Virus record (IMG/VR): IMGVR_UViG_3300050821_012709
Span: 1 to 27,916 of that record
Reading direction: 5' to 3' (one strand)
Source of the DNA: a virus
DNA: 27,916 nucleotides
In this document: positions 828-27,916 of the stretch, one piece after another
Layout: each line of letters starts with the position of its first letter
Position numbering within the stretch: the first letter of the stretch is position 1
Position numbers and translations under genes: made by a program
Notes under the pieces: generated by a model
What the model saw: the letters and a program-made list of their open reading frames with translations, nothing else
Databases searched by the model: none
Told to the model about the DNA's origin: nothing

Positions 828-1476
828 CGCGTCTTCCTTTCTTGTCGGCGGGCGCTGTGGTGGCGACGTGCGGCACGATTCCGACAATGGCAATCGTTGT
901 GCCCATCGAACTAGCGCCGCATGTCCCCGTGCATTGAAAAACTATGTACAGCTTGTCGCCCTGATTCACCGATACCTGGTGCGTGTAGTCGGAGCATCGC
1001 TGTGAACTTAATGGGGCCTGCGTGCATGTCAGCGCCGTAGCTGTAGCCCCGTCATACACGGTCGCGGTTATCGAACTACCTGCGGGCACTGATGTGCTGC
1101 TCATCGTGGAGAAAGAGGTCAGAGAGCCTGCGGCCAGCACGCTATATGTCATCCCTGGCGGGCTGGTCGCGAGGGTCGTAAGCGCAATCTGCAACCAGTA
1201 GTTTGTCCCCGCCGTCATCGTTTGGAAGCCTGATGCAGTCGCCCATGTGATATATCCGCCTGGGGCGTTCCCCTGCGGGGGAGCTGGCGCACCGATAACC
1301 GGCGTGCCGCCGCTGGCAATCGGCGTGCCCGTGCCGGACACAACCGGCGTGCCCGAACCTCCGCCGATAACCGGCGTGCCCGTGCCGGATACAACCGGCG
1401 TCTGGGTGACGATCGGCGTTTGGGCGGATGCGATGGCGCATCCTAAAAGAAAAACTAAAAACCTTAAAATCTTCAC
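802..1476 (-). CDS. Exported protein with TP repeats and one copy of a Cys-paired repeat domain, 224 aa
   Basis: The start is GTG 1476, which overlaps the TGA of the upstream gene (GTGA). The codons upstream in this frame belong to the neighbour's coding region. Residues 1-19 form a signal peptide (MKILRFLVFLLGCAIASA, likely cut at ASA|Q; the LLGC stretch could instead be a weak lipobox). A low-complexity segment follows, built of GTPV and SGTGTP units and encoded in part by a 51-base tandem repeat. The C-terminal 125 or so residues form a domain also present twice in the neighbouring gene: TAGTNY, then TATVYDG, TC, C-S-D-Y-T-H, VNQGDK and CTGTCG. The four cysteines could form disulfides outside the cytoplasm. 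Function is unknown; an adhesin or surface-modifying protein is inferred from the domain style. It overlaps the small basic gene downstream. Confidence 0.75.
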   Translation of the reverse strand: MKILRFLVFLLGCAIASAQTPIVTQTPVVSGTGTPVIGGGSGTPVVSGTGTPIASGGTPVIGAPAPPQGNAPGGYITWATASGFQTMTAGTNYWLQIALTTLATSPPGMTYSVLAAGSLTSFSTMSSTSVPAGSSITATVYDGATATALTCTQAPLSSQRCSDYTHQVSVNQGDKLYIVFQCTGTCGASSMGTTIAIVGIVPHVATTAPADKKGRRDAFKKGNF

Positions 1477-1582
1477 GGCGTTATCGCCCCTATCTGTGCG
1501 GTGATGCCGCCCATACCCGTTAACGCGCCGCACGGTCCTGTGCAGACCAGCGCAATTTGAATTTTGTCGCCCTGATTCACCG
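953..1582. repeat. Direct repeat of 19 bases marking the duplicated domain
   Basis: TTGTCGCCCTGATTCACCG is present at 953-971 and again at 1564-1582, encoding the conserved VNQGDK segment of two copies of the repeat domain. A diverged third copy (CACCCTGATTCACGG) lies near 1966. This is nucleotide-level evidence of recent duplication or gene conversion between the two neighbouring genes. Confidence 0.8.
1322..1401. repeat. 51-base tandem repeat encoding SGTGTP-type units
   Basis: A 29-base segment at 1322-1350 recurs at 1373-1401 with one mismatch (C versus T within CCGGAYACAACC), giving a period of 51 bases or 17 codons. The shorter element CCGATAACCGGCGTGCC is also duplicated (1292-1308 and 1364-1380). 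The repeat sits in the linker of the exported protein. In-frame periodicity would allow linker length to change without a frameshift. Confidence 0.75.
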
Positions 1583-2333
1583 CGACAGAATCGGTGAAGT
1601 CTGTGCAACCCTGACTCGCGCTGGCGAGGGTGCATGTCATCGGAGAGAGCACAGCGTTAACAAAAACGCTTACCACGATAGAATCCCCTGCGGGTACTGG
1701 CCCTCCAGTATTCACAATCATGTTCTGTAAGTGACCAGCTTGCAGCGCGCCCTGCGACATCACACCGCCTATGTTGCCCGAGGTGGAGAAGGGAGCAACA
1801 AGCGAGGGCTGGATGGCATATTGCGCTCCGGCGGTCATGCTTGGGCTGGCGTTTGTGGTTTGCCACTGCATATAACCAGTGGTGCCCGTTCCTACCTCCG
1901 CGAAGATCGCACCAATCGACGTGCCACTACATGTGCCCGTGCACGCGAAAACAAACATCACCGCATCACCCTGATTCACGGCGGCGCTGTGCGTGAAGTC
2001 TGTACACGTCGCTGGTTGTCCTGTCGTGATCGCACATGTTATCGCCGTTGGATTGCCATTAAGATAGACAGTCGCTGTAACTGTATTCCCGGCAATCGTC
2101 GAACTTGTGTTGACATACAAATTTTGCAAGGTGGCGGTGGTTGGCGACTGGTACACCAGCGGGTTTGCGTTCATCGCAACCAGAGAGCCGAAGTTTCCCC
2201 CTATGAAGTAGTTGGTTCCCGCAGCCATCGTGCTGCCGCCATATGCCGTTGCATTTTGGATGATCCCAGGGGTAGGGGTTTGCCCCATGCAATAAGCGCC
2301 GCACAGCAAAACAAAAGCTAAGATCCGTTTCAT
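1473..2333 (-). CDS. Exported protein with two tandem Cys-paired repeat domains, 286 aa
   Basis: An N-terminal signal peptide (MKRILAFVLLCGAYCMGQ, about 17 residues before QTPTPG) is followed by two copies of a domain of about 125 residues (roughly 25-150 and 152-286). Each copy has TAG or AAG-x-Y, then a VPAGDS or TIAGNT strand, V-x-VF or TATVY, a Cys, CTDFT with H or D, AVNQGD, and CTG-x-C. The downstream gene carries a third copy. The 19-base sequence TTGTCGCCCTGATTCACCG occurs on the plus strand in both genes (953-971 and 1564-1582), so the duplication is visible in DNA. The predicted fold is all-beta from the alternating hydrophobic pattern. The gene starts two bases after the upstream stop, so it is part of the same operon. 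I do not recognise the domain by name. A role at the host surface or in attachment is inference. Confidence 0.8.
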   Translation of the reverse strand: MKRILAFVLLCGAYCMGQTPTPGIIQNATAYGGSTMAAGTNYFIGGNFGSLVAMNANPLVYQSPTTATLQNLYVNTSSTIAGNTVTATVYLNGNPTAITCAITTGQPATCTDFTHSAAVNQGDAVMFVFACTGTCSGTSIGAIFAEVGTGTTGYMQWQTTNASPSMTAGAQYAIQPSLVAPFSTSGNIGGVMSQGALQAGHLQNMIVNTGGPVPAGDSIVVSVFVNAVLSPMTCTLASASQGCTDFTDSVAVNQGDKIQIALVCTGPCGALTGMGGITAQIGAITP

Positions 2334-2334
2334 A

Positions 2335-2739
2335 TCACTGTTTCCCTGTGTAGTGGAAAATCACCCTGGTGGTGCCGTCGCCCGCCGTGTAGGTGACTAA
2401 GTTGATTCTTAGATAGAGCACGGGTTTCGAGACGATGTGTTCCATGTAGGCGGTCGTGCAGCTGTTGGTTGCGGGCGCGGTCACATCCAGCCCATACCAG
2501 GTGCTGTTATCGGAGCTGCCCTCGACGCGGAATGTGCAAGCGGTTGGCGCGGTCCCGTTCACGCTGGCGTCGATGGTGTAATTTTGCGGACGGGCTGCGA
2601 CGTTCGAGAACTGCAACGGGATGAGCGGCACGGCGGCGGTCACCGCTGGAAAGGTATAGAGCAGGTTATTCGGTGCTTGAACCTGCGCCGCCGCCGTCGC
2701 ACACACCAAACTAAAAACTAAAAACAGTAGCTTTTTCAT
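2335..2739 (-). CDS. Small exported beta-rich protein, 134 aa
   Basis: A signal peptide (MKKLLFLVFSLVCATAAA, cut likely AAA|Q) precedes a mature part of about 115 residues with alternating hydrophobic strands. It includes the segments NYTIDASVNGTAPTACTFRV and EGSSDNSTWYGLD and ends VIFHYTGKQ. It has two mature cysteines. The start ATG overlaps the stop of the endolysin (ATGA, 2736-2739) and has AGGAG 8 bases upstream, so the start is well supported. The signal-peptide region is encoded by the AT-rich motif TTTTTAGTTTTTAG. No family is assigned. It is the first of three exported proteins after the lysis genes, which argues for action outside the cytoplasm, but the function is unknown. Confidence 0.78.
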   Translation of the reverse strand: MKKLLFLVFSLVCATAAAQVQAPNNLLYTFPAVTAAVPLIPLQFSNVAARPQNYTIDASVNGTAPTACTFRVEGSSDNSTWYGLDVTAPATNSCTTAYMEHIVSKPVLYLRINLVTYTAGDGTTRVIFHYTGKQ

Positions 2740-3260
2740 GTTTTATTCTCCTGAATTTGCGATCGTACGATCGCGATATCTTCCTGTGCCCGCTCGGGAA
2801 CCTGGAATCTTGCCCAAGCTGAGTCTTCCATCGCATCGGCGGCGGCGGGATAGTCCTTGTGTTCGAATGCCGCGACCGTATCGACGAATTTAGAAAATCT
2901 GGTTGGCCCCAGGTTATAGATCATGTCAACGATCACAGCTTGTATCGGGTCCGGGTGCTCGTCGAAATTGCGGACGATTCCCGGCGCAAGCGCGATCGCA
3001 TCGTTGAGGTCTACTTCAAACAGCGCTTCTACGTGAAGGTCTGTCAGCCTGACCAGGCCCGCGAGCACCTTATCGAAATCGAGATCCAAGGCGATGAAGC
3101 GGCGGCGAATGCCGGGTACTTCAAAGAGCTTGTTGTCCTTGTCGCGCATCGCCAACAGGCGGCCAATGCCCACCGTTGGATTGCCGCCCGTGTCTTCATA
3201 GGTGACATAGCGGATGCCCTCATGCCGCCTGACTAGATCCGCCGTGTAGTCGCGGTTCAT
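2736..3260 (-). CDS. Endolysin, T4-lysozyme-type (GH24) muramidase, 174 aa
   Basis: The N-terminus LVRRHEGIRYVTYEDTGG followed by NPTVGIG is the GH24 signature. The catalytic triad of T4 lysozyme (Glu11, Asp20, Thr26) maps exactly onto Glu14, Asp23 and Thr29, with the same spacing. The family cleaves the MurNAc-GlcNAc bond of peptidoglycan to release progeny. A later segment, AVIVDMIYNLGPTRFSKF, matches the helical part of the family. At 174 residues it is close to T4 lysozyme (164). No signal peptide or SAR anchor is seen, so it should depend on the holin-like protein encoded just upstream, with which it shares an ATGA overlap. AAGGAG lies 5 bases before the ATG. Confidence 0.93.
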   Translation of the reverse strand: MNRDYTADLVRRHEGIRYVTYEDTGGNPTVGIGRLLAMRDKDNKLFEVPGIRRRFIALDLDFDKVLAGLVRLTDLHVEALFEVDLNDAIALAPGIVRNFDEHPDPIQAVIVDMIYNLGPTRFSKFVDTVAAFEHKDYPAAADAMEDSAWARFQVPERAQEDIAIVRSQIQENKT

Positions 3261-3586
3261 GGCTTCTCCTTCGGCGGCGGCTGCACGGCGCTTTTTAGAT
3301 CGGCCTTAGTTTCTGCGATCGTGTCCTGGCTCTCCTGCAATTCCGCCTGGGTGCTTTTAAAGCTGCCTACCACCTGGCGGCCCCAGGGCGATTTGAGAGA
3401 CAGCGCCCCTACTGTCATCAGCGCCCCTTGAAAGAAGAATTTCCAGAGCTTGCCCGATCCGAAGTCACGCGGGAATTGATACTTTGCCGGGTCCATCGCG
3501 GCGGCGAAAGCGCCCGCGATGCCGCCGCCTACCCCGCCAATGACCAGTGCTTTAATCCAGCCTTTCGCGCCTTGAACCTCCGCCAT
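3257..3586 (-). CDS. Holin-like small membrane protein, 109 aa
   Basis: The start is placed at ATG 3586 (MAEVQGAKGWIKALVIGG) because a G-rich Shine-Dalgarno (AGGGGG) precedes it by about 5 bases; an upstream in-frame start would overlap the spike stop. Two hydrophobic segments are present: about residues 10-30 (glycine and alanine rich) and about 49-63 (FFFQGALMTVGALSL). They are joined by the loop MDPAKYQFPRDFGSGKLWK. A hydrophilic helical tail rich in Gln, Glu and Lys follows. This layout, and direct overlap with the endolysin start, fit a class II-like holin that permeabilises the inner membrane. I have a sense of similar MDPAKYxFP proteins in environmental phages. The alternative is a virion or superinfection membrane protein. 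Confidence 0.7.
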   Translation of the reverse strand: MAEVQGAKGWIKALVIGGVGGGIAGAFAAAMDPAKYQFPRDFGSGKLWKFFFQGALMTVGALSLKSPWGRQVVGSFKSTQAELQESQDTIAETKADLKSAVQPPPKEKP

Positions 3587-3594
3587 GACACCCC

Positions 3595-6500
3595 CTAGTG
3601 AACCCACCAGCACACAGTTGATGTGTCGCCAGTGTTGCTCGACACGATGTTGAAACTGACCCCGGCTGTGATCGTGCCCACGGAGAGAATCCCCGGCGTG
3701 CCTGCCGCGCCGCAGTTGGTGAGCGTATAGACCGCGCTGCTCGATGCCGCTGCGGTGCTGATCGTCGCCAAGCCTGATGTAAGAGTTGTGCGCCCCTGGT
3801 TCGGAGGTTTAAATCCGCCCGTGAACCCGCTGAGGTCAATATCCGATCCGGCAGGCACTGTGTAGGCCGTATGAACGGGCAGGCTTAACGGCGTGCCGCC
3901 GTTGCACTGATACGTTTCGTTTATCTTGGTCGGCGTCACGCCTGCAGCGGTGTTAGATGAGGTAGTCCAGCCGCAGCCGGTGTTATTGCTCACCGTGCCG
4001 TTCCACCACATGAAATAGTCATACCAACCTGGGGGACCATTGAAGGTGCTGGCGGCGGTCGCGGCAGTCGCGTTGGTGTTTCCCATACGGGCCGCCTGTC
4101 CCCCGGTGCCGGTGTTATAGGCTAAAAACTGCGTTGAATTATTGCCGCTGGTGCGAAAACTTACCTGCCACTGTGACAAGGTTGCATTCCACGATTCAAA
4201 GCTAAAACCTGCTGTGGCCCCCGTGTTAGCTGGCGATCCTCTGAAGCAAACCCGTGTGAGCGCGTGCCCTGCGGCCATGTCATAAAAGCAGTGCTGCGAG
4301 AGGTACTGATGGCCGAATAAATCGCCGGTCAGCGGGTCTGCTGAAGTGTTTGAATACAAGCTCCAGTAGTTGTTTGTGTTGCTCGGCATCGTCGTGTCAT
4401 TAGAGGGATCGGAATAGGTCACCTGTGCGTAGGAACCATCGAGCGGATACTGCACCGCGTAGATGTGCGGCGATCCGGTGTTTAGAATTTGCCCATTGAA
4501 TACGCTGGTTGTTTCTGCCGCAGACGTGCTCCCAGGATTAGCAACCCCGATGCTGGAGCTGCCAAAGACCTTGATGTAATCCTGCCCGTATATCTCCGCC
4601 GTGTTCGGTCCCCAATACTGCATTCCCTCAAACATCGCGATCGAACCGCCCGAACCTTTTTGCGCCCGCGTCCAGGTTGAATAACCATTTGGAATCGGTC
4701 CCGCAAGGAACGTCGCGCAAGTTAAATTCGTGCCGTCCACGCATTCACTCGCCCAACCTGGTCCCGGTGGCCCAAGCGATGACGGGTGCCAGCTCTTGAT
4801 TGTGACCGGGCCATAGCTGCCTTGCGGCTGCATGGCAAGAATTGAACCAGCGGGCCACGCAACGTTTGTCACCGTGCTGCCCGCCTGGTTGCGTGCTCTG
4901 AACATAACTTGCTGCGTAGTGCCAGAGAAGACCACCAGCGCTAGCTCATAACTCCCGCGAGTAATTCCTGAGACAGCCGTGGATGGTGCGCCGCTGTTAA
5001 CTAGATAGTCCGCTGGCTCGATATAGTAAAAGCCGCCCTGCGTGTTCGATGGAATGTCGGCAGGGTCGTTGATGTACGGGAAAGCATAGGCGGTACTGGC
5101 CACGGGCGCGGTTGCGGTCGCCCCGGTGCCGGTGATCGGCCCTGTCGTCGTCGTCCACCAGGGGTAACCCACATCCATCAGCGCCGGATTGACAGGGACA
5201 CGGTTATTAAAGGGAAAGCCCTCGCAGTACATATCTTCAATCAAGCCGCCTTGGTGATTCGTGATATAGATGCAAGGGCTGTACCACAGCGATTTAATCG
5301 AGCCGCCCTGCACCTGGAAGGTGTCGCCGCCCACGGTCAGCCCTGCGCCCCAATACTCAGGCAACAGTGTGGGGGAATAAGTCAGGCTGCCCGGTGTCTC
5401 GGTGTCGGTGATCGTCGTAGCTGCGGTCACCGTGTATTGCGTGCCGGTCGGCGTGGTGTTCTGAACACTGGCCACCGTATAGAAGCCATTCAGCGCCGGA
5501 TTGTTGGTTGCGCCCCCTAATTGAAAGGTGTGGCCTGCAACAAGCGGCGAGATGCCGTTATTCGATGGCCCATTCGTTCCGCCGTTGATGACAAGCGTTA
5601 GTGTGGTGCCGTTGGCTGTCATCGCCGCCACAGTTTGCGGCGTCACCCATCCGTTATTGGGATAGACACCATTCACGCAATTGCGCGTGGAGTAGCAATA
5701 GTTAGAGGCATCCTGCCCTGGCGAAGCTATGGACGTGTCAAGGAAGCGATTCTCATTCCCTACCCCGACAACTGACCATTTGTTAGTGTCCCATTCCGTT
5801 GCGATGACTCTTAGCCGTTCGGTGCTTCCTGCCGTGGCCAGCCCACGGTTGCCGTTGCTGCCGCGAACTTTAAACACGGTGAAGCCCACCGCGTTGATAA
5901 GTTCTAAAAGCGTGCCGGTCGAGAAATGCCCGCCTGGTGCGTGGATCGTTATGTTTTCAATTGACCCCTGGCACGACCATTGATTCGGCTGCGGCCCTAC
6001 CCCGCCTGATACAACTACCCCGTCATAGTTCACGCCTGCGGTTGTTCCCACGTAGAGAAGCGATGCGCCCTCTCCATCGCCAATCAAGTGCAAGTTGCAG
6101 TTCATTCTTAGCGGCGCTTCGAGATAGTACGTGCCTGCGGGAACCCAGATAGCCGCGTTGCCGTGCGCCTGCGGATTCGCGATTGAATAGGCTATCGCCG
6201 CATTGATGGCCGCCGCCGATGGCCTGACCCCTTGGGGATCTGCGCCGCCTGCGAACATCGGATTTTGCACGTTCACCTTGGGTAACGGCGTCATCCATCC
6301 GGCTTGCCCGATGATGTCGCCCGCTACGTCCGTGTAGATCCTGTTCGGAGACGACACGCCAAAGTTTGACCCTCCGTTGAGCTGGAAATCGTAGAGCTGC
6401 CCCACTGGATTGTTCGCGCTGCCCCCCTGCGGGACGCATAGATTTGTGGCTGGCGAATAGACCATCCCCGGCGTGCAACCGGCAGGCCAGGTCACATTAC

Positions 6501-6780
6501 CAGGCGGGATCTGATCGAAGCGCAGGCAGCTATTGGTTGCCGGGTTATAGACGCCCATCGGCTGTTGACAGCTCGGGATCGGCCACACGATAGCCGATGA
6601 AGGAAGCGAGCCGATGTTCTGGCAGTTGTTCGCGCCTGGTACGTAGGCGGCGGTCGGTGACAGGCAGCTCGGGACCGGCCAGCGGATCTGATTCCCTGGG
6701 TTGATCTGATTCTGGGAAAAACTTAAAAAACAAAAACTAAAAAAACTAAGAATTAAGAGTGACTGCCTGGTATATCGCAT
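3595..6780 (-). CDS. Beta-helix tail spike with N-terminal signal peptide and Cys-pair repeats, ~1061 aa
   Basis: Two ATGs (6786 and 6780) are in frame; 6780 is chosen because GGGG lies 9 bases upstream of it but only 3 from the other. Residues to about 22 form a signal peptide (RQSLLILSFFSFCFLSFS|Q). Three repeats of about 30 residues follow, built on WPxPSCxxPxxxYxPxxNxC (roughly 34-58, 66-89 and 98-119, the last slightly shortened). From about 175 comes a pectate-lyase-like right-handed beta-helix entry: INAAIAY...WVPAGTYYLEAPL, then HLIGDGEG. The middle is long and strand-rich. The C-terminus has GILSVGTITAGVSFNIVSS then DTSTVCWWVH, a terminal beta module I recognise from phage tail fibres. 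Such spikes bind and often depolymerise surface polysaccharide. No catalytic residues can be named. An export signal on a virion spike is unusual. Confidence 0.85.
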   Translation of the reverse strand: MRYTRQSLLILSFFSFCFLSFSQNQINPGNQIRWPVPSCLSPTAAYVPGANNCQNIGSLPSSAIVWPIPSCQQPMGVYNPATNSCLRFDQIPPGNVTWPAGCTPGMVYSPATNLCVPQGGSANNPVGQLYDFQLNGGSNFGVSSPNRIYTDVAGDIIGQAGWMTPLPKVNVQNPMFAGGADPQGVRPSAAAINAAIAYSIANPQAHGNAAIWVPAGTYYLEAPLRMNCNLHLIGDGEGASLLYVGTTAGVNYDGVVVSGGVGPQPNQWSCQGSIENITIHAPGGHFSTGTLLELINAVGFTVFKVRGSNGNRGLATAGSTERLRVIATEWDTNKWSVVGVGNENRFLDTSIASPGQDASNYCYSTRNCVNGVYPNNGWVTPQTVAAMTANGTTLTLVINGGTNGPSNNGISPLVAGHTFQLGGATNNPALNGFYTVASVQNTTPTGTQYTVTAATTITDTETPGSLTYSPTLLPEYWGAGLTVGGDTFQVQGGSIKSLWYSPCIYITNHQGGLIEDMYCEGFPFNNRVPVNPALMDVGYPWWTTTTGPITGTGATATAPVASTAYAFPYINDPADIPSNTQGGFYYIEPADYLVNSGAPSTAVSGITRGSYELALVVFSGTTQQVMFRARNQAGSTVTNVAWPAGSILAMQPQGSYGPVTIKSWHPSSLGPPGPGWASECVDGTNLTCATFLAGPIPNGYSTWTRAQKGSGGSIAMFEGMQYWGPNTAEIYGQDYIKVFGSSSIGVANPGSTSAAETTSVFNGQILNTGSPHIYAVQYPLDGSYAQVTYSDPSNDTTMPSNTNNYWSLYSNTSADPLTGDLFGHQYLSQHCFYDMAAGHALTRVCFRGSPANTGATAGFSFESWNATLSQWQVSFRTSGNNSTQFLAYNTGTGGQAARMGNTNATAATAASTFNGPPGWYDYFMWWNGTVSNNTGCGWTTSSNTAAGVTPTKINETYQCNGGTPLSLPVHTAYTVPAGSDIDLSGFTGGFKPPNQGRTTLTSGLATISTAAASSSAVYTLTNCGAAGTPGILSVGTITAGVSFNIVSSNTGDTSTVCWWVH

Positions 6781-6997
6781 ACGCATTATCCCCGATTTCC
6801 AACTGGTAATTGAGGCTTATGGTGCGTTGCGAGAGCGTGAAATGGAGTACAGGGATTTGGAATATGCCGTTGACGAAAAACCAGAAGAACCCCCCCTGTT
6901 GGGGTGACTGGCTCAGACTGAAAATCGGCCCTGGAGAAACGACAATCCCGCCATCGGTGGTCATGTACGGCAGAGCCGGGACAACGGGGATCGTCAT
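6746..6997 (-). CDS. Small tail appendage protein, duplicate of the neighbour's C-terminal domain, 83 aa
   Basis: The segment GFFWFFVNGIFQIPVLHFTL, then SQRTISLNY, then IGDNAYAIYQAV aligns residue by residue with the C-terminal domain of the upstream 242-aa protein (GLFYNGQLLLDPLHYSLSGQ, TITLTF, IGDNLCASYVAA). This is a short beta domain often seen in phage fibre and baseplate proteins. The gene starts by an ATGA overlap with its neighbour and has no clear Shine-Dalgarno, so translation is probably coupled. It overlaps the spike start by about 35 bases. A structural role next to the spike, such as an adaptor or collar, is inferred. Confidence 0.7.
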   Translation of the reverse strand: MTIPVVPALPYMTTDGGIVVSPGPIFSLSQSPQQGGFFWFFVNGIFQIPVLHFTLSQRTISLNYQLEIGDNAYAIYQAVTLNS

Positions 6998-9116: not shown

Positions 9117-10741
9117 TGATTCTCCCCGCTGTTCGCGACTTCGGTTACTAACCGGCTGACAATCGGCACGTAAGTTTCGGGCGGTAGCCGGTGCGATACA
9201 GCCCAGACCATCGCGCTGCCAATTTTCGGGTTCGTCTCCATCAGTTGTAGAAACCTTTTCCCCGCGAGATAGGCCGTTGTGCCACCTAGTGTGGTCATGC
9301 CAACCGGCACACCGAAGAGTGAATGCAACACAGTTTCGCCCGCCGCCGCTTTCGCAAAGGTTCTGACTGTGACGTTTTGAATCGCGTCTCTCATGCGATC
9401 GCGGCCCGCCCGCGTCAAATTCGCATCCGCAATGTCGTCTAAGTTTTGCCGAATCCCCGGCCCTAGAACGTCATCCATCACCGTTTGGCCTTGCGTACCT
9501 ATGCCCCACTGCTGGCGGAGTTTCAACAAACCCTGTTTTAATTTCATGCCGTTCAAACCGCCGTCTTCGGCTGCATTCTCGGTGAGATTAGAAATCTGGT
9601 TTAGCTTCAGGGCCTTGTAATAGCTGCGCTTTGCTACATCGTGGTCTACGGGATCGGCTGCGCCTTTGGCTTCGTTCCAGAAATCCTCCATCTGCCTATC
9701 AGTTCGCGCAGCGCGGGCGACGTTCTCCTGGCTGTCGCTCTCGGTCAGCGCCTGGTGTGCCGCTTCCTGCCGATCGCGTAGCAGGCTGAATCTTCCGCCG
9801 CTCTCATCATCTAAAACTTTATAAACATCATCGCCAACCGACTTTACCTGGTCTACAGCTTGGGGAAAGCTGGTCACCTTGCCGGTGTACTTCTCCGGGT
9901 CTAGCTGCGTCCACCAGGGTTGCCCCGCGTCCTCGCGGATTTGATTCACTTCGTTGATGTGCCGCCCTACGATGTCCTGCGAGGCCTTCTGAATCGCTGC
10001 GTTGGCGGCTTCGTCTTTGGCTGTCTGCGCGATCTTGGCCGCGCCGCCGCCCTCGATGTTCCTTACGATCGCAGGTACGGCGCTTGCCCCGCCTTCCAAA
10101 AGGCCCGCGGTTCCCCCGCCGATGACTGCGGAAGCAATCCCCGCGCCTACACTGCCGGTTTTCGCCGCCGTCTGCGTGCCGCTGAGTGTGCCCTGTTCTA
10201 CTCCGGTTGTGAGTCCCGTTTTCACAGCGCGGGCTAGCTCTCCATCCGATTCTAAAGTTTTTAGAAAAGGTAAAACCTTCTGCATTTTCTCGGTGTACGA
10301 AAGTCCCTTGAGCGCTTCGTTTCCCAGAGCGTATTCGGCTACGCCTTCCATGAACTTTCCCGCTTGTTCATCCGGGGTATCTCCGCCCTTCCCGATGTCT
10401 GCCAGCCGTTGTAAAAATTTCTGCCGGCGATCTTCGCCGGGTATGAGGCTCACTCCGGGGATCTTCTCTAGCAGCTGCCCCGTGCCGCTAACGGTTTCCG
10501 CTCCGCCGCGTAGTATCCCCCCCACTCTGCCGGTAACTCCGCCCACGCTTCCCATCGTGTCTAAAACCTGCTCGGGCAGGCCCTGCGGGACAGGCGTGAC
10601 CGGCTGTCCGGTCGGCGCGGCCTGTCCGGTGCCGCCTGCGGTCGGCTCAAGCGTAATCCCAGGCGGAGGGCCGGACGTGCCTCCGCCGTTGCTGCTGCCT
10701 ACTGGCGGACTTAGCGTAATTCCAGGCGGAGGACCGTCCAT
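9113..10741 (-). CDS. Large internal-virion/ejection-type protein, 542 aa
   Basis: The start ATG 10741 has GAGG 9 bases upstream. The N-terminus has two copies of SGPPPGITL-like sequence (GPPPGITLSPPVGSS and GPPPGITLEPTAGG), followed by a Gly/Pro-rich linker to about residue 90. The body is Ala/Gly rich and helical, with a hydrophobic glycine-rich stretch near 195-230 (SVGAGIASAVIGGGTAGLL) that could insert into membranes. The C-terminal half is charged and helical. Length, composition and placement after the tail-nozzle gene and before the appendage genes match the ejected internal proteins of short-tailed phages, which enter the host with the DNA. No enzymatic domain is seen. It overlaps the next gene by ATGA. 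Confidence 0.65.
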   Translation of the reverse strand: MDGPPPGITLSPPVGSSNGGGTSGPPPGITLEPTAGGTGQAAPTGQPVTPVPQGLPEQVLDTMGSVGGVTGRVGGILRGGAETVSGTGQLLEKIPGVSLIPGEDRRQKFLQRLADIGKGGDTPDEQAGKFMEGVAEYALGNEALKGLSYTEKMQKVLPFLKTLESDGELARAVKTGLTTGVEQGTLSGTQTAAKTGSVGAGIASAVIGGGTAGLLEGGASAVPAIVRNIEGGGAAKIAQTAKDEAANAAIQKASQDIVGRHINEVNQIREDAGQPWWTQLDPEKYTGKVTSFPQAVDQVKSVGDDVYKVLDDESGGRFSLLRDRQEAAHQALTESDSQENVARAARTDRQMEDFWNEAKGAADPVDHDVAKRSYYKALKLNQISNLTENAAEDGGLNGMKLKQGLLKLRQQWGIGTQGQTVMDDVLGPGIRQNLDDIADANLTRAGRDRMRDAIQNVTVRTFAKAAAGETVLHSLFGVPVGMTTLGGTTAYLAGKRFLQLMETNPKIGSAMVWAVSHRLPPETYVPIVSRLVTEVANSGENQ

Positions 10742-10747
10742 AGTTTT

Positions 10748-12754
10748 TTACCTCGTCGCGGCAGGAGTCGCAGGATGCCAGCCGCTTGCATCCTGATAGC
10801 CTGCATATTTCCCGCTCGCATCGCGGCCAATTTGCGCCCCTGGTGGAAGGTTCGCGGGTACATCGCTAGGCGTACCGCCGCCGCCTGCTCCTTGCTGATA
10901 AGGCACGCCCATGATGTGCTGATAGGCCCCTTGCGCCGCTGGTCCGAAGATCGGGATAGGCGCGACGGCAGCGGGCGGCGAGCCTGAATTCCATTGGTTC
11001 TGCAAGCCTTCTAGCTTGCCGGAAAGCAGCTTGATAAACGCTTTCGCGTTGCCCCTTGTTTCCTGCGGAGACCACGCATTTATGCGGCTGCTCCATTCGT
11101 CCTTGTCCTTTTCGGTGATCGAACCCGCCTGATACGCTCTGCCCAATTCCCCAACTAAAGCCGTCTTCGCGTCTTTTAGATCCATAGCTTTTTGGTTTCC
11201 AAAAAACCGCTCCGCCGCGCCTACTATCGGCGTCGAGGCTAACCAACTGGCATTGTCATACATCGTCTGCATGTGCATCATGGCGGTGTTGATCGCGTTG
11301 ATTCCATCCGCTGGCTTGCCACTGGTGAACGCCTTGCGCGTGGCCGCATAAGCTGGCGCACGGGTGAAGTCGTAACCGGGATAAGCGAGCGCAACCTGTT
11401 TGGCCAAGAGCTGCATCGCCGGACTTCTGCCAAACGAAACATCCGTCTTTCGCCCTTCTCCGATTTCTCGCACCAGCGACTGAGTGCCTGCATCGAGCGA
11501 ATTTAGATAGTTCTGGCGCACACCGTTTACCGGGACTTCGTTCAAAGCTGCTTGCGCGTTCACGTCCTCTGCGCCCGTGTTGCGTAAGTTCGTCGCCTTT
11601 TGCTCGGCTAGATCGGCGGATGCCCTCTTTTCTCTCGTGCCCGCCTGCTTTTCCTCCAGATCGGCCTTTGCCGTTTGCGGCGCATATTGGGCCTTGATTT
11701 CGGCCTCGGTAGTCCCCGCTACCTGCTGGCGTCTTGCCAGCGCCGCGCCCGAATCCAGATTCCATTTGTTGTTCATCAGCTCCAGATCACGCTCTACAGA
11801 CCCCTCGGGTAGCTCCGTCTCTACCGTGTGGCCGCCCTCTTTGGAATCGTCGGGAATCCATTGCCTGCCCTTGGTGCCTTTGGGCAATGGCGCGTCCATG
11901 CGATCGGGCGGGATTTCCCAGAACTGCACCCCTTGGGCGGTGTGGACCGGCATGATGTTGGCGTTGTTGAAATGATCCTGCCAGATGTTCGGCGCAACCT
12001 GCTTGATGGTGTGGAAGTCTTCGGAGTTATAGAAACCGGGAATGGCGTGGCCGCCCATCGCCTTATAGCGATCCTGCTGCTGATTGGCCCATTCCTGTTG
12101 CTCTTTGCCGTACTCGAAGCCCTGGCGATCGTGCGCTAATGCCATCTCCGCGATCTTCATTTGCTGAATCTGCAAGGTGGCCTTGTCCATCTTGGCCTGC
12201 CGCTGCATCTGCCATGTTTTCGTTGCTTCCTCATCCTTCAGCGCATCCGCCTTCGCCCGATCGTTTAATCCCCCCTGTAATCCCGCGTTAAGCGCCCTTC
12301 CTGCGCCTCCTGCACCCTGACCGGCTGCTAACCCTCTCCCTGCGCCCTGGAGAGCTGCTAGGCCCACTCTGGCCCATTGCTGTGCATGGGTCTGTGGCGG
12401 GTGCTGGATGAATTTGTTGCCGTCCTGGTCGATGTAGACTTCCCCGCCCTGGGTGCCGCTCAGAAACTTGCCTACCTCGTCTATGACCCCTTGCATTCCG
12501 TGGCGTCTCAGCGGCTGGAGAACGACCGGCGCGGCGGTGTTCTGTGCCGGTGCGATGCCCTGCGCGGTCTGCCATGCCTGCGTCTCGGCCTTAGCTGCCG
12601 GGTGCGAAGCCGCGATCATGGCATCGCTCGGCGGCGCGGGCGGGTTGCCGGTAGTCGGCGGCGGCGAGCTGGTGCTGCTGTCCGCTGGCGGCGGCGGCGC
12701 GGGCGGCGGTGTCGCCGTCGAGGGTCCGATTCCGATGTCTGGTGCGTCTGCCAT
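10748..12754 (-). CDS. Large internal-virion/ejection-type protein, 668 aa
   Basis: The N-terminal 45 residues are almost entirely Pro, Ala, Ser and Thr. A Gly/Ala-rich helical segment follows (VGLAALQGAGRGLAAGQGAG, about 128-150), then long coiled-coil-like helices rich in Gln, Lys and Glu (about 165-230 and 335-390). A C-terminal helical region contains INAINTAMMHMQTMYDNASW, followed by KTALVGELGRAYQAGS and the tail PAAQGAYQHIMGVPYQQ. The INxAIxHMxxL...VAxELxxxYxxG pattern is one I have seen in internal virion proteins of podovirus-like environmental phages. The probable role is in the ejectosome that carries DNA across the cell envelope. GGGA about 5 bases, or AAGG about 10, before the ATG supports the start. 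There are no cysteines of note and no signal peptide. Confidence 0.65.
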   Translation of the reverse strand: MADAPDIGIGPSTATPPPAPPPPADSSTSSPPPTTGNPPAPPSDAMIAASHPAAKAETQAWQTAQGIAPAQNTAAPVVLQPLRRHGMQGVIDEVGKFLSGTQGGEVYIDQDGNKFIQHPPQTHAQQWARVGLAALQGAGRGLAAGQGAGGAGRALNAGLQGGLNDRAKADALKDEEATKTWQMQRQAKMDKATLQIQQMKIAEMALAHDRQGFEYGKEQQEWANQQQDRYKAMGGHAIPGFYNSEDFHTIKQVAPNIWQDHFNNANIMPVHTAQGVQFWEIPPDRMDAPLPKGTKGRQWIPDDSKEGGHTVETELPEGSVERDLELMNNKWNLDSGAALARRQQVAGTTEAEIKAQYAPQTAKADLEEKQAGTREKRASADLAEQKATNLRNTGAEDVNAQAALNEVPVNGVRQNYLNSLDAGTQSLVREIGEGRKTDVSFGRSPAMQLLAKQVALAYPGYDFTRAPAYAATRKAFTSGKPADGINAINTAMMHMQTMYDNASWLASTPIVGAAERFFGNQKAMDLKDAKTALVGELGRAYQAGSITEKDKDEWSSRINAWSPQETRGNAKAFIKLLSGKLEGLQNQWNSGSPPAAVAPIPIFGPAAQGAYQHIMGVPYQQGAGGGGTPSDVPANLPPGAQIGRDASGKYAGYQDASGWHPATPAATR

Positions 12755-20295: not shown

Positions 20296-21462
20296 TCAGG
20301 TTGTCTGGGGTACTGCATCCCAACAACGGGCACGGCTCGTGGTATCTGGCGGCGGGCCGAAAGCTAAGATCGCGTTGTAACTTACCCCACCGCCGATAAC
20401 TCCGGGGGGATCAGCTTGGTTACCCATCTGGTACTCACCCATCCACAGTTTCATGTTTTTGTAATTGCCATCGTCTACATCCGTGCGGTTCTCGCGGTTG
20501 AGCTTGATGGTGATTACAGCGTCACGTCCGGCGCAGTAGGTGCGGATGGCCGTGTTGCCCGTGGCTTTCCAGTTGGGGGTTTGGGTGCAGTTAGTCGAAG
20601 CCATCCAGTGAACGCCAAACAGCTCAATAATGCGGATGCTGTCGCCGTCCTCTGGGTCGGGCAGCTCGGAGAGTTTCATCTGGCCTTCTGCTGTGTGCTT
20701 CCAGATGTCCACAATGCTGTTGTTCGACGTATCGAGGGCGACTAAATCGCCTACGAAAAATGGGTGGATCTTCCCGCCGAAGTAGCCGGTATCAAGTTCT
20801 GACACGTTCTGGCCGCGCAAGCTGAAGGGCGCTTGCTCGATCATGGCTTTGGTAAAGTTGGGCGCGGCGGTAGTGGCATCGAGGTTGGCAGTTTTTGGAT
20901 CTAAAATTCTCAGATAATCGAAGATGGCCATAATCAAGTCATCGACTGAGAGGCCCAGACGATAGGCCATCTCACGGCGCAACGCGATCATGTCATCGCT
21001 GATCGAAGTAACCAGGGCCTTATCACTTATGTTCAAGTAATCAGCCCATTGACCCAGAACATAGTCTTGGAAGTTAGCAGTAGTCGAGATGCCTGTCCCT
21101 ACTGTACCCTCCGCCTGCTCCTGGGTGTTGGCGGGGAAAACTGGCCACATAAAATTACGGTAGATTTGACCAGACTTGGCAGGCATTGGTAGCCTGGTTG
21201 TCATCCGCATCATAATCAGCTTGGCTTTTAAATTTTCTAAAAAATTTTTATTATAGAATGTTGAAAAGGCTGCCTGCGGCATATTTCCACTGGTCATCGA
21301 CGCAGGGGAAAACCCGTCGCAGAATGCAGCTCCGGGGTGTGCAGCACAGGACAGCGCATAGCGCGAGGTAACGACGATCGCAGAACCTAGCGCAACGATC
21401 AGCTGAAGAATCGGGAAAACAACCCAATCGACCAGCCAGCGGGTAAGCCTCTCTGTCGGCAT
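20296..21462 (-). CDS. Major capsid protein, N4-gp56-like (P22-type fold), with hydrophobic N-terminal extension, 388 aa
   Basis: From residue 61 the sequence MPQAAFSTFYNKNFLENLKA, then LPMPAKSGQIYRNFMWPVFP, EGTVGTGISTTANFQDYVLG and LNISDKALVTSISDDMIALR, follows the N4-gp56 capsid family. In that family a short N-terminal helix with YxKxxLExxxPK and a KNSGKTI-like strand precede the EGxT, YGDYxxxSD and helical regions. It forms the icosahedral shell. Residues 1-55 are unusual: MPTERLTRWLVDWVVFPILQ, continuing hydrophobic to about 33, then CAAHPGAAFCDGFS. The first ATG (21462) has GGAG with a 7-base spacer, while ATGs at residues 56 and 61 have no good site. The extension therefore appears to be translated, then perhaps cleaved. 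The preceding gene is a likely scaffold, as expected. Confidence 0.85.
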   Translation of the reverse strand: MPTERLTRWLVDWVVFPILQLIVALGSAIVVTSRYALSCAAHPGAAFCDGFSPASMTSGNMPQAAFSTFYNKNFLENLKAKLIMMRMTTRLPMPAKSGQIYRNFMWPVFPANTQEQAEGTVGTGISTTANFQDYVLGQWADYLNISDKALVTSISDDMIALRREMAYRLGLSVDDLIMAIFDYLRILDPKTANLDATTAAPNFTKAMIEQAPFSLRGQNVSELDTGYFGGKIHPFFVGDLVALDTSNNSIVDIWKHTAEGQMKLSELPDPEDGDSIRIIELFGVHWMASTNCTQTPNWKATGNTAIRTYCAGRDAVITIKLNRENRTDVDDGNYKNMKLWMGEYQMGNQADPPGVIGGGVSYNAILAFGPPPDTTSRARCWDAVPQTT

Positions 21463-23323: not shown

Positions 23324-23647
23324 ATGCTCGGCAAATACATCCTCGATGCGAACGGCAATCCGGTGGTTTGCAACGATCTGATCGAGTGGGCGACGTGGTA
23401 CGAGAGCGCCCGCGATCGCCGGGTTGCGTTTGACCAGGTGGGAGAAGTTAAAATCTCGACCGTATTTTTAGGTTTAGATCACAACTTCGCGATGACCGGC
23501 CCGCCGATCCTCTGGGAAACCATGATCTTTGGCGGCCCATTCGACCGCGAAATGTACCGCTACACTACGCGGGATCTGGCGCTGATCGGTCATGCTGACG
23601 CCCTGCTGATGGTGAAAACCACCATGCGCCACAAGCAGCACGTTTAG
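23324..23647 (+). CDS. Conserved phage protein on the plus strand, 107 aa
   Basis: It begins MLGKYILDANGNPVVCNDLI and contains VAFDQVGEVKISTVFLGLDH then FAMTGPPILWETMIFGGPFD, followed by MYRYTTRDLALIGHADALLM. The pattern (NPVVxxDLxEWAxWxE, RVxxxxVGxVxISTVFLGLDHNF, PPxLWETMIFGG, RYxTxxxAxxGH) matches a small protein I know from a great many phage genomes, of unknown function. A stop codon lies 5 codons upstream, so ATG 23324 is the only start, although its leader has no Shine-Dalgarno. It is one of only two genes on the plus strand, opposite to the virion operon. Confidence 0.8.
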   Translation: MLGKYILDANGNPVVCNDLIEWATWYESARDRRVAFDQVGEVKISTVFLGLDHNFAMTGPPILWETMIFGGPFDREMYRYTTRDLALIGHADALLMVKTTMRHKQHV

Positions 23648-23673: not shown

Positions 23674-23880
23674 ATGGGAGACTTAGGGAACCCGCACTAT
23701 AACACCGCAGAAGACGAGCCAGCCGAAATGAGAGTGATCGAACTGGAAGAGACCGACTATAAACTGCTGCTGCTCGCCTTGGGCATCGCTGCCGGTGCCT
23801 ATTCCAAGGACAAAGGCACGAATCTAAGCGCGAAGATTATCGATCTGTGCAACCGGATCTTGGAGACTCAGAAGCTCTAG
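23674..23880 (+). CDS. Small acidic/helical phage protein on the plus strand, 68 aa
   Basis: ATG 23674 has GAGGA about 10 bases upstream. The alternative start MRVIELEETDY (residue 19) has a weaker site. The core, VIELEETDYKLLLLALGIAA then IIDLCNRILETQKL, resembles small phage helical proteins of the ELxxxEYELLLLALGxAxG type with a hydrophobic helix pair; function unknown. It follows the 107-aa gene by 26 bases and is presumably co-transcribed with it. It converges on the zinc-ribbon gene that ends 7 bases away, with a run of seven T right after its stop (23882-23888). Confidence 0.65.
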   Translation: MGDLGNPHYNTAEDEPAEMRVIELEETDYKLLLLALGIAAGAYSKDKGTNLSAKIIDLCNRILETQKL

Positions 23881-24202: not shown

Positions 24203-25690
24203 CTACTGCGCCATCTCAATAGCCACAGTCGAGTACGCGGGAACGTCCGCTTGCACGATCGCATTATCAGCGGGCGCGGCCCTCAGATCCTGTTTGGTCA
24301 GCGCGTTATTGCCCAGGGTGAATAGCTGGCTGTGTGTCGGCTTGATGCCCAAGTGTGACATCTTCACCCGCAGCCCGCTAACCGCCGTGGCCGTGGGATT
24401 GATGAGTACCAGGGTGTCTGCTGTCGGGCTGTATAGCGCGATGGTGAGCAAGCCGTTTGGCGCTGTCGGTGGAACCACCACACTGAAGCCTGATTTTTCC
24501 AGGTTGAGATAATCGCTCGCGCAGAACAGCTGAAAGGCCATCAGCGATGGATAGGGCACATAGGCCGCGTTGTACGGTTGCCCGTCTTTCGGCGGGTTGC
24601 ACATCAGCGGATCGCCGCCCTGTATCCCTTCGAGGCAGAAGTACCCCCGGCTGTCTGCGGACATGAAATAGACGATTCGACCAGGCGGCAGCGAGCCTTG
24701 CGCTACCACATCGAGAAAGTCAGCGATCGCTACCGTGTTCCACAAAGGCCCGTACACGTTATCGTTTTGCACTTTGTTCATTTGGTACGCATAGTTCGTG
24801 TTGTACTCGCTGACCAGGATTGGCGTAGTGGCCGCGTTGGGCTGTGACCCTTTGCGAACTGTCTGCTCAAGCTGGCGATAGTAGTAGGCCACTCCGCCAG
24901 TTGGGTTTTGCGTTGTCTGGTAAGCCTGATCCCAAGTCATCCCCGGCAGCAACCAGGTGCCGGTGATGTAGATATGCCACGAAACCAGATCGACATAGGG
25001 CGCGGTGGCCCCGCTCAACAATGGCGGTATCCAGGTGGCTATGTTGGCAGAGCTGGCCAGCGTAGGACCGCCTAGCTTGGCCGTGGGTGCGGCTTTTCTA
25101 AATTCCGGTCCCAAGGCCGCATAGAGTTTTAGATAGTTGCCCAGAGGATCGGACGGCGGGCAGAAACTGCCGTTGGCTACGTCCGGCTCATTCCACAGTT
25201 CGTAATTCAATCCGGGGTGGAGCTGGTCGGTGTGCTTGACCGCCTGCGCCGCCAGCTGCGCCCACTTGTTGACATCGCTCGGCATCGAGCACGGCTGCGG
25301 TCCCAGGCTTGGCGGGGTGCCATAAATCGTAATCATGGGGCTTAAACCGCTCTGCGTGCCCCGTGAGAGCTGCCCGTCCCAGGCGCTGTAGTTCGGCGTG
25401 TCGCCATTGGCAAAAATGGTTTGTACGTTGATCCAGATGCGATTGCCTAGCAAGTTAACCTTGGTCAGATTATCGATTCCGCTCTGGCTGGAGACGGTTG
25501 AACCCACACCGCCGCTGCCGAAGAAGTAGGGCGGTATGTTCACCGTGCTGGTGCGGCCCCCGAAGTCCGCGACCACATCGGCGGGCTTGTGATGGTGGTA
25601 CAGCCACCAGAGCACTAGGAAGGCCAGCACCATGACAAGGAACGTATATAAAAAGAAAAATTTATAAAAATTAGGATTTCTTCCCGGCAT
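24203..25690 (-). CDS. Membrane-anchored glycoside hydrolase, clan GH-A (GH39/GH30/GH5-like), 495 aa
   Basis: Residues 9-31 (YKFFFLYTFLVMVLAFLVLWWL, preceded by a basic end) form one transmembrane anchor. The positive-inside rule puts the enzyme outside the cytoplasm. The catalytic part is a (beta/alpha)8 barrel of the GH-A type. LNYELWNEPD places the acid/base Glu168 after strand 4, VSWHIY (about 236-241) is the usual later strand, and ILVSEYNTNY gives the nucleophile Glu295. A beta-sandwich of about 90 residues ends the protein, as in GH30, GH39 and GH51. Substrate cannot be told; plant or host polysaccharide is likely. GAGG lies 7 bases before the ATG, so the start is firm. It stands between the portal-linked zinc protein and a zinc-ribbon gene. 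This looks like an auxiliary metabolic or host-modifying gene. Confidence 0.82.
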   Translation of the reverse strand: MPGRNPNFYKFFFLYTFLVMVLAFLVLWWLYHHHKPADVVADFGGRTSTVNIPPYFFGSGGVGSTVSSQSGIDNLTKVNLLGNRIWINVQTIFANGDTPNYSAWDGQLSRGTQSGLSPMITIYGTPPSLGPQPCSMPSDVNKWAQLAAQAVKHTDQLHPGLNYELWNEPDVANGSFCPPSDPLGNYLKLYAALGPEFRKAAPTAKLGGPTLASSANIATWIPPLLSGATAPYVDLVSWHIYITGTWLLPGMTWDQAYQTTQNPTGGVAYYYRQLEQTVRKGSQPNAATTPILVSEYNTNYAYQMNKVQNDNVYGPLWNTVAIADFLDVVAQGSLPPGRIVYFMSADSRGYFCLEGIQGGDPLMCNPPKDGQPYNAAYVPYPSLMAFQLFCASDYLNLEKSGFSVVVPPTAPNGLLTIALYSPTADTLVLINPTATAVSGLRVKMSHLGIKPTHSQLFTLGNNALTKQDLRAAPADNAIVQADVPAYSTVAIEMAQ

Positions 25691-25701
25691 GGTTGCACCT
25701 C

Positions 25702-25932
25702 TCAGTCGTTAGGGAGCTGGCCCGGTACTTTGCCCCTGGTGCCGCAGCGATCGCAGGGAATGCCACCAGGCCGAAGCCCGCAGCCGTCGCAGTCGGGACA
25801 GGTGATTACAGTAGCTTTGCCCTTGCAGTAGGGGCAGAGAACTTTGCAGCGGAATTTAAAAACGTCACGTCGAGCAACTATAGTTTTTACTTTTTTAGCT
25901 TTTGGGCAAGGTTCGAGAATCGCGGTGTTCAT
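25702..25932 (-). CDS. Small DnaJ-type cysteine-rich zinc-binding protein, 76 aa
   Basis: The core has three CxxC-type clusters: CPYCKGKATVITCPDCDGCG then CDRCGTRGK. The CxxCxGxG-like spacing resembles one DnaJ-type zinc-finger unit, in which two zinc ions are held by four CxxC pairs; here only part of that set is present. The N-terminus is basic (KAKKVKTIVARRDVFKFRCK). It starts in an ATGA overlap with the portal stop (25929-25932), so the two are translated together. Many phages carry a short zinc protein at this place. The exact role is unknown; chaperone-like help in portal or capsid assembly is only a guess. Confidence 0.72.
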   Translation of the reverse strand: MNTAILEPCPKAKKVKTIVARRDVFKFRCKVLCPYCKGKATVITCPDCDGCGLRPGGIPCDRCGTRGKVPGQLPND

Positions 25933-27916
25933 GGATTCATTCCCCCTTCGAGAATTTGCTCATCGCCTTTGCGCTCGGCCAACGCCATAGCGCGGTTTAA
26001 CGGGACGCCTTCCTCGGTGCGCTCCATCGCTTTTTCGGTGATGGTGTTTGCAAGGTCGTCTTGCGATTTCGCGTGTATCTCCGCGATGCGGTTCTGTCCG
26101 CGTGTCTGCTCGACTTGCAGCTTGCCCTGGTTCTGTGCCTGCATGGGCGCAGCCGTGGCCTGTTGCACGCTTTGCTTTTCCTGCGGGGTGAGAGGCCGGA
26201 TGATGTCGGGCTGCTGTTGCAGTTCGGAAACCTGCATGAGTAGATCCACGATCGTGGCGAAGTCGATGGTGTCGCCGCGTGCGTGAAGGAACTGCAAGAG
26301 CTGCGGCTGTTGCACCATTTGCATAAAAAATGGAATGACTTGCTGAATCCCCTGCCGTTTGGCCAGCTTTTCGCCAGCTAAAACTAAAACCTCAAATTCT
26401 GAATTTAAAAGTTGATTGACGAACAGGCTGTCGATTATGCCTCTCGAGTATTTCTCGGTGAGGATCTCGCGTATCTCCCACAGCGGCATATTTTCTTTAA
26501 TCATGTCGATCAGCCAATACACCATGCGAACGATGACGCCCTCGGAGACCGCTTCAACCGGAGTTGAAACCGTTTCGTCGGCCTTGTTCGCAATGCGGCT
26601 TGCGCCGGTCGCGGTGCGTGCGGCGGAGCTGCCGGGTCCGGGTAGGTTGCCCTGCATAAAGGCCGCGTTCGCGCCGCTGATGTCCTCGGCGCTCTGCGAC
26701 GACAGCTCCAGCATGTGCCACGCATCGGCGGGGACTGCGGGCATTTCTAAAAATCCAACCTGGCGTTTTAGATCCGCACCAGGGGCCATGCCCTCGATCT
26801 GCCAGAATCCGCCCAGGCGGTGAATCACGTTCTGGGTCGGTGCATTCATGCCGGTCGCGATCAACAGCGGCGCATTCATCGGGTACGCGATCATCTTTAG
26901 GCACTCGTTCAAAACGCCCTGGTTGATGCGTTGGTCCGCTCCCGTGCTACGTCCAATTCCAATGCCCATTAAGCAGTTGTCGATGTTCCACCAGTTCGCC
27001 GTGACGTGAATACAGGTGTTGTCGTGCGGCTCATTGCGGATGCAAAGTTTCCTGCCTTCGTAGTAAAGAATGGTCTGCACGTTCTCGCAGTCCCACCGCT
27101 CGATGAGCATTAGCGGCTTCAGCAACGGATCTTCGGAAGTCTGCGAGCTGGTCGATTCCGCGTGCGTAACCGCGCTGCCTTCGCTGCTCATGCTCTGCGC
27201 TACGCTGGTCGGGTAGGGCGCGTCACCGATCGGGCGCGAGAAGAAGAACGCCCGCAGTGTGGCCTCATCGGGGATGTTTTTATAACACTCCAGCTGCCGC
27301 ATCTGTTGCAGATCAGCGAATGTCACATAATCCAGATCGATGCAGTAATTGCCGCTTAGATCGGGCCGGTTCGGGGTGCAAGTCTTCGGGTCAAAAAGTG
27401 TGGTGCCTAGCTTGCGATACTCGAAGCATGGCCACGATTCTTGTACTTCTTTCTCGATGACTTCAAAATCGTCACTCTCCACCGTGGGGATCGTCTTTTG
27501 CCCGAACGGGCTATTGATGGTGACCGGCGCTTTCTTTCGCACGCGGTATTTCCGGCGCACCGTTTTCGTGTCCCAGAATGCTTTGCCTATGCCGGTGCCT
27601 TGCAGACATTGGCAGTCGATCAGCAAGCCAACGTGATACTGAAAATTCATGCGCTGTAGCAGCTTGCCGATTAGCACCGTCCAGGCATCGGCCATCGTCT
27701 GCGTTGTGTTCTTTGCTGGCCGCAGGAAGAAAGGCACGGTTTCAGAGAACAGAGCGCGTTTTACCTGCCGCGACATGGTGTTGCTGTTCTTCGCGACCAG
27801 GTAGCGCGAGATGCGCCCCGGTCGCCCCTGCTCGTTGTAGGGGTAACGGTCAAGGTTGGGCGACTGGTAGAGGATGTCGGTGTGCTGCCATTCGAGAAGC
27901 CAGAGGTTCGATTCAA
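25929..27916 (-). CDS. Portal protein, 5' end off the window (661 aa visible)
   Basis: The frame is open from the right edge (beginning ESNLWLLEWQHTDILYQSPN) through an internal Met at 27776 to the stop at 25929, so the start lies beyond the window. A central run (SAEDISGANAAFMQGNLPGP then SSAARTATGASRIANKADET) and a later VRMVYWLIDMIKENMP match the crown-proximal core of large portals in short-tailed phages. The C-terminal 90 residues are helical and Gln/Glu-rich (TPQEKQSVQQATAAPMQAQN, RIAEIHAKSQDDLANTITEK), as in a portal barrel or scaffold-binding tail. The portal forms the dodecameric DNA entry channel at one vertex. The 615-residue reading from 27776 is a truncation, not the true start. 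Confidence 0.8.
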   Translation of the reverse strand, partial: ESNLWLLEWQHTDILYQSPNLDRYPYNEQGRPGRISRYLVAKNSNTMSRQVKRALFSETVPFFLRPAKNTTQTMADAWTVLIGKLLQRMNFQYHVGLLIDCQCLQGTGIGKAFWDTKTVRRKYRVRKKAPVTINSPFGQKTIPTVESDDFEVIEKEVQESWPCFEYRKLGTTLFDPKTCTPNRPDLSGNYCIDLDYVTFADLQQMRQLECYKNIPDEATLRAFFFSRPIGDAPYPTSVAQSMSSEGSAVTHAESTSSQTSEDPLLKPLMLIERWDCENVQTILYYEGRKLCIRNEPHDNTCIHVTANWWNIDNCLMGIGIGRSTGADQRINQGVLNECLKMIAYPMNAPLLIATGMNAPTQNVIHRLGGFWQIEGMAPGADLKRQVGFLEMPAVPADAWHMLELSSQSAEDISGANAAFMQGNLPGPGSSAARTATGASRIANKADETVSTPVEAVSEGVIVRMVYWLIDMIKENMPLWEIREILTEKYSRGIIDSLFVNQLLNSEFEVLVLAGEKLAKRQGIQQVIPFFMQMVQQPQLLQFLHARGDTIDFATIVDLLMQVSELQQQPDIIRPLTPQEKQSVQQATAAPMQAQNQGKLQVEQTRGQNRIAEIHAKSQDDLANTITEKAMERTEEGVPLNRAMALAERKGDEQILEGGMNP

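Follow-up and report, generated by a model that had tools for sequence, protein, structure and literature searches.

A GH39-like glycoside hydrolase with a predicted membrane anchor in the head operon of a probable Acidobacteriota phage

IMG/VR record IMGVR_UViG_3300050821_012709, a linear stretch of 27,916 bases analyzed at its full length (the window), is probably from a soil phage infecting Acidobacteriota, and its head operon encodes a GH39-like glycoside hydrolase (GH) with a predicted N-terminal membrane anchor. We propose, with a probability of about 0.5, that this enzyme is a retaining glycosidase held in the inner membrane, where it cuts the exopolysaccharide of the infected host by a PslG-like mechanism. 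The signal for the gene is well above chance, as judged from a Pfam match, a PDB match that includes both glutamates, viral orthologues, and a dN/dS of 0.09.

The gene is a real open reading frame (ORF) on the minus strand; the plus strand across 24203–25690 is riddled with stops. An earlier note, made from the sequence by eye, had described a 495-aa enzyme with its catalytic glutamates in LWNEPD and VSEYN, lying between portal-linked and capsid-linked genes. E168 is found in the first motif and E295 in the second, and PHROG matches identify the portal gene on its upstream side and the major head protein gene on its downstream side. The features of this region are as follows.

24203..25690, minus strand: gene for the GH39-like glycoside hydrolase, predicted to be membrane-anchored, 495 aa (ORF, Pfam PF01229, fold, orthologues, dN/dS).
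25698..25703, minus strand: Shine-Dalgarno-like GAGAGG, 7 nt 5' of the GH ATG (sequence).
25702..25932, minus strand: zinc-ribbon protein of 76 aa with CxxCxGxG-type repeats, directly upstream of GH (kept with GH in the window clade).
25929..27914, minus strand: portal protein gene, running past the window edge (PHROG portal, E=1.2e-5).
20296..21462, minus strand: major capsid protein gene (PHROG major head protein, E=4.6e-5; 38% to the Tunturi_3 major head protein).

The gene order is portal, 76-aa zinc-ribbon protein, GH, small ORFs, p181, p128, a scaffold-like gene, and the major head protein. A GAGAGG-like element is also present in a second virus (L002), and nothing above chance was found for a dedicated promoter or terminator of the GH gene on its own strand. 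The GC and GC3 of the gene resemble those of the neighboring genes and give no hint that it was acquired recently. Two small plus-strand ORFs (23324–23647 and 23674–23880), on the strand not used by the head operon, are situated between GH and p181, and C2H2-type zinc-finger ORFs occur in two GH-carrying viruses (window 2–391 and L101:12391–12951).

Anchored orthologues were found in four further viral contigs at 44–93% identity, including other gene settings. The near-identical viruses L002/L003 carry GH at 93%, and L011 carries it (54%) at the corresponding position, again flanked by portal and capsid genes. In L101 (64%), it lies among ParB-like and HNH-type (DNA-metabolism) genes, and in L103 (44%), it is on the strand opposite to the structural genes; GH does not accompany late genes in every virus, a point against the mechanism proposed here. 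The head-module setting in the earlier note therefore holds for the window but is not essential to the gene. No match to the window capsid was detected in the L101 or L103 contigs, and as these may be fragments, the missing match is weak evidence for different phage types. GH is absent from the more distant relatives L008/L009 and from the isolate Tunturi_3, in which the portal runs straight to the p128/scaffold/capsid region. Its presence in some lineages and absence from these indicate a cargo gene, gained or lost by particular lineages. The dN/dS of GH calculated against L002 was 0.086, and that of the portal was 0.089, indicating that the gene is under purifying selection on par with the portal. 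A 98-aa protein, its family not recognized, lies directly upstream of GH in L101 (5283–5579) and L011 (12080–12367) with 53% identity and is absent from the window; in these two contigs, it and GH appear to be arranged like a two-gene cassette. One phage-collection match (25% identity), MT836841, comes from a faecal scaffold that is unverified, and it was not considered further.

The closeness of the gene to the portal gene would suit a virion-borne depolymerase or an ejected protein with a hydrophobic N-terminus by chance. However, the orthologues outside head modules argue against this explanation, as does the presence in the window of a separate protein of the usual depolymerase type (3595–6786), a beta-helix ending in a K1-lyase domain, and we give it almost no weight. 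Within 802–6786 of the minus strand, four ORFs start like Sec signal peptides (MRMRYTRQSLLILSFFSFCFLSFSQ, MKKLLFLVFSLVCATAAAQ, MKRILAFVLLCGAYCMGQ, and VKILRFLVFLLGCAIASAQ, the last from an internal start), one of which is the 1063-aa protein that ends in the K1-lyase domain, a pectate-lyase-type beta-helix. To our knowledge, exported beta-helix proteins are unusual in phages.

The Pfam family Glyco_hydro_39 (PF01229) matched the enzyme with E=1.4e-9 (37.7 bits against a curated cut-off of 26), a match spanning residues 139–313 only. The earlier note had named the failure of every GH-A profile as one result that would count against it, and its claim of a clan GH-A glycoside hydrolase is upheld. 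The best PDB sequence matches were GH39 beta-xylosidases (E=1.2e-7), whose WNEP and TEYNT glutamates align with E168 and E295, respectively; PHROGs and NCBIfam held no useful model for the protein. An AlphaFold2 model computed with 48 relatives reached a pLDDT of 84.4 and a pTM of 0.84, and a run on the three nearest phage sequences alone (pLDDT 42) was discarded. The features of the encoded protein are given below.

25595..25675, minus strand: N-terminal transmembrane anchor, residues 6–32, predicted type II (N-in) from the positive charges that most orthologues carry (AlphaFold helix, hydropathy).
24506..25522, minus strand: (beta/alpha)8 catalytic barrel, about residues 57–395 (secondary structure; structural matches to GH39/GH30/GH79 barrels).
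25187..25189, minus strand: E168, predicted acid/base at the end of strand 4, WNEP motif (invariant in 48 sequences; aligned with a GH39 beta-xylosidase).
24806..24808, minus strand: E295, predicted nucleophile in strand 7, SEYN (invariant in 48 sequences; aligned with a GH39 beta-xylosidase).
24209..24487, minus strand: C-terminal beta-sandwich, residues 402–494, common to the acidobacterial homologues (AlphaFold2 model, alignment).

In the model, E168 directly follows strand 4 (162–165) and E295 lies within strand 7 (291–297), the positions at which the earlier note had expected the two glutamates. Foldseek gave GH39 structures as the top matches (E 4e-19), and a second structural aligner gave Z 26–29 for GH30, GH79, GH39, and PslG, with GH30, GH79, and GH39 tied. 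On the modelled fold, membership of clan GH-A is certain. The fine family, which had been called unassignable by eye, comes out as GH39-like by sequence; the tied fold scores do not distinguish GH39 from GH30 and GH79.

The single N-terminal membrane anchor proposed earlier was recovered by two predictions, the AlphaFold helix at residues 6–32 and a Kyte-Doolittle 19-residue maximum of 2.45 at residue 12, the only strongly hydrophobic segment (runner-up 1.24). One N-terminal hydrophobic helix was present in all five phage orthologues, none of which has a recognizable lipobox. Basic residues precede the hydrophobic peak in four of the five, the exception being the L011 protein, which has none. 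From charge and hydropathy, the phage GH is predicted to be an N-in, C-out single-pass protein. Four cysteines (Cys134, Cys177, Cys352, and Cys364) are invariant among the five phage proteins, which fits an oxidizing compartment. An anchor of this kind was absent from the 19 other GH-A-type viral loci found. Another viral GH-A-type family of about 405 aa in IMG/VR (L105, L109, L110, L114, L121, L122) has the WNEP motif and an N-terminus like MTDYVITNGRISNYP..ATFC and carries no membrane anchor.

Relatives of the enzyme were found among large exported proteins of Acidobacteriota. A first scan of genome contigs with phage-only patterns gave no relative, and wider patterns gave only partial matches of about 21–35% identity, including Patescibacteria proteins. 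In the phylum to which Edaphobacter modestus belongs (via L043/G001), close matches occurred in one of 396 genomes, G400, which has two such proteins (1e-97 and 1e-93). In the family of G400, the domain was present in 8 of 300 genomes, with copies per genome reaching at least five when five candidates were scored per genome. The acidobacterial homologues, which include proteins of G400, G415, G607, G539, G436, G413, G476, and G518, are 700–1980 aa long and also match PF01229, and the domain is C-terminal in the complete ones. Ig-like repeats (Cep192/ASH/HYDIN-type or Big_2) were detected in five of the six scanned, and several begin with a lipobox, such as ISGC, LSGC, or LTGC. Identity between the phage and acidobacterial proteins is 31–35% for most and extends over nearly the whole ectodomain, including the barrel, both glutamates, and the C-terminal beta-domain (E to 1e-72). 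The cellular-ectoenzyme layout described in the earlier note can thus be taken literally, as the ectodomain is common to exported acidobacterial proteins. These proteins share the catalytic and C-terminal domains with the phage protein; their N-terminal regions vary widely in length, mostly carry Ig-like repeats, and have signal peptides or lipoboxes, whereas the phage form has just a membrane helix. The predicted anchor of the phage form occupies the place of the acidobacterial stalk. One acidobacterial protein has two tandem GH domains (L162:4973–9448, contig C309 of G436), with a further paralogue adjoining it at 9399–11543.

The phylogeny with bacterial homologues that the earlier note had asked for was computed by maximum likelihood. 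The phage proteins formed one clade (100/100), and the phage and acidobacterial proteins together were split from 21 other GH39-like proteins, also at 100/100. A topology in which the phage proteins nest within the bacterial ones was tested and was unsupported (AU p=0.36). Patescibacteria were considered as a source of the gene; GH39-like proteins of 445–498 aa with an N-terminal membrane helix occur there (L023, L024, L032, L050, L060, L061, and L097), but despite the same anchor-plus-barrel layout, the tree places them outside the phage and acidobacterial clade, and this source was rejected.

A periplasmic glycosidase expressed from a late operon would be suitably placed to assist lysis by acting on a periplasmic glycan, whether linked to peptidoglycan or not, alongside the lysozyme-type endolysin of the phage, for which the window has a separate gene (2736–3260). 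We regard this role as very improbable, because the nearest relatives are polysaccharide hydrolases of the GH39/GH30/GH79 type and not muramidases, and those in Acidobacteriota are exported proteins on stalks.

Among isolates, Tunturiibacter phage Tunturi_3, a podovirus with an acidobacterial host (PMC11924767), comes nearest to the window by both portal (28%) and capsid (38%), and capsid homologues were detected in an acidobacterial genome (1.7e-58). These likenesses and the kinship of GH make Acidobacteriota the likely host phylum.

In G607, one stalked homologue lies beside a glycosyltransferase, a sugar transferase, a second GH39-like protein, a Wzy/ligase, a Wzz-type kinase, and WecG, a neighborhood which, by its predicted products, is a Wzy-type exopolysaccharide locus. 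The second GH39-like protein (L155:3386–4765) is distinct and adjoins the Bac_transf sugar transferase and the stalked GH. A general association of the acidobacterial homologues with such loci was rejected, as only one of about 14 neighborhoods showed it in a test with three query proteins.

The acidobacterial proteins provide a cellular homologue of the phage GH, which is one criterion for an auxiliary metabolic gene (AMG), and the earlier note had offered two roles, feeding the host from polysaccharide or modifying the host coat. In a classical AMG role, sugars freed from environmental (plant) polysaccharide would feed the infected host; beta-xylosidases are among the GH39 members, and glycoside hydrolases in soil viruses have been labelled AMGs, with some shown to be active (PMC11924767 and references therein). 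However, an enzyme anchored in the inner membrane and facing the periplasm would miss a polymeric substrate outside the cell, no transporter or sugar catabolism gene was recognized adjoining GH, and the gene is within the head operon. The feeding role is rather improbable in our judgment and the weaker of the two, because an anchored enzyme would act in or on the infected cell, its gene belongs to a head operon, and one cellular homologue is in an exopolysaccharide synthesis locus; the role of host-coat modifier fits better.

Cutting of host exopolysaccharide by a membrane-held enzyme has a precedent in PslG, a GH39 retaining endo-beta-glucosidase (PMC11912335). Most PslG is located in the inner membrane, and overproducing it lowers the exopolysaccharide Psl, whereas overproducing a catalytic mutant does not (PMC6813494). 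From this precedent, we propose that the target of the phage GH is host exopolysaccharide, reached from the periplasmic side of the membrane, and since its cutting domain is common to giant exported acidobacterial proteins, the phage may use it to trim the slime coat of its host. The enzyme would be expressed from the head operon, with an uncleaved N-terminal helix holding it in the host inner membrane and its catalytic and C-terminal beta-domains presumably facing the periplasm. There it would cleave the host's own exopolysaccharide during export, using E168 as the acid/base and E295 as the nucleophile. Infected cells would end with a lost or shortened coat, and progeny might then escape the matrix more easily and be re-adsorbed less.

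An anchored enzyme could instead trim a receptor glycan at the surface or in transit through the periplasm, thereby blocking sister phages. Membrane retention would limit the effect to the infected cell, and a cargo gene common to otherwise different viral contigs suits a cell-level advantage. However, expression from the head operon would come late for such superinfection exclusion, and this receptor removal is hard to tell from the cutting of exopolysaccharide; we consider it unlikely. Returning to exopolysaccharide cutting, a broader and tentative generalization, which we regard as possible but somewhat doubtful, is a class of "inside-out depolymerase" in which Acidobacteriota phages bear, on a membrane anchor, the catalytic domain found in the stalked surface enzymes of their hosts, strip or shorten exopolysaccharide from within before lysis, and exchange the gene as mobile cargo among unrelated phages.

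Virus-encoded soil glycoside hydrolases and phage depolymerases are already known. In the literature searched, of which coverage was incomplete, we found neither a phage-encoded exopolysaccharide hydrolase with a membrane anchor nor a conserved anchored phage form whose domain also occurs in stalked enzymes of Acidobacteriota. Phage anti-coat enzymes are known chiefly as parts of the virion acting from outside, whereas the phage GH seems to stay with the infected cell, held in its membrane, and the catalytic part of GH is common to a family of large exported acidobacterial proteins that looks undescribed. Should host exopolysaccharide be its substrate, the enzyme would give the viruses of a phylum that is among the most common in soil a route to alter the soil matrix and would be a counter-example to the default carbon-feeding AMG label. 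The phage GH also offers a testable handle on the role of its multi-copy acidobacterial relatives.

Among known systems, PslG of Pseudomonas aeruginosa shares the GH-A barrel with the phage GH (Z 26.1). Its inner-membrane association and retaining glutamate pair, E165/E276 (PMC6813494, PMC11912335), are similar, by prediction, in the phage enzyme; however, PslG is encoded in an exopolysaccharide operon with Psl as its substrate, and the phage GH in a head operon. PslG was not among the phmmer single-sequence matches of the phage GH at E<=1, and a profile of the 48 relatives matched it at 5e-13. The GH39 beta-xylosidases (Geobacillus XynB1, 2BS9), which gave the best PDB sequence matches, were solved as chains that lack the phage-type membrane anchor, and the similarity is confined to residues 135–307. 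Soil-virus glycoside hydrolases labelled as AMGs include a GH5 mannanase and a GH75 chitosanase; they are cargo like the phage GH but belong to different families. Phage tailspike depolymerases are mostly beta-helix trimers. Tailspikes cut bacterial surface polysaccharide, as proposed here for the phage GH, but they are virion-borne (PMC6966330), whereas the phage GH has a TIM barrel and is predicted to reside in a membrane.
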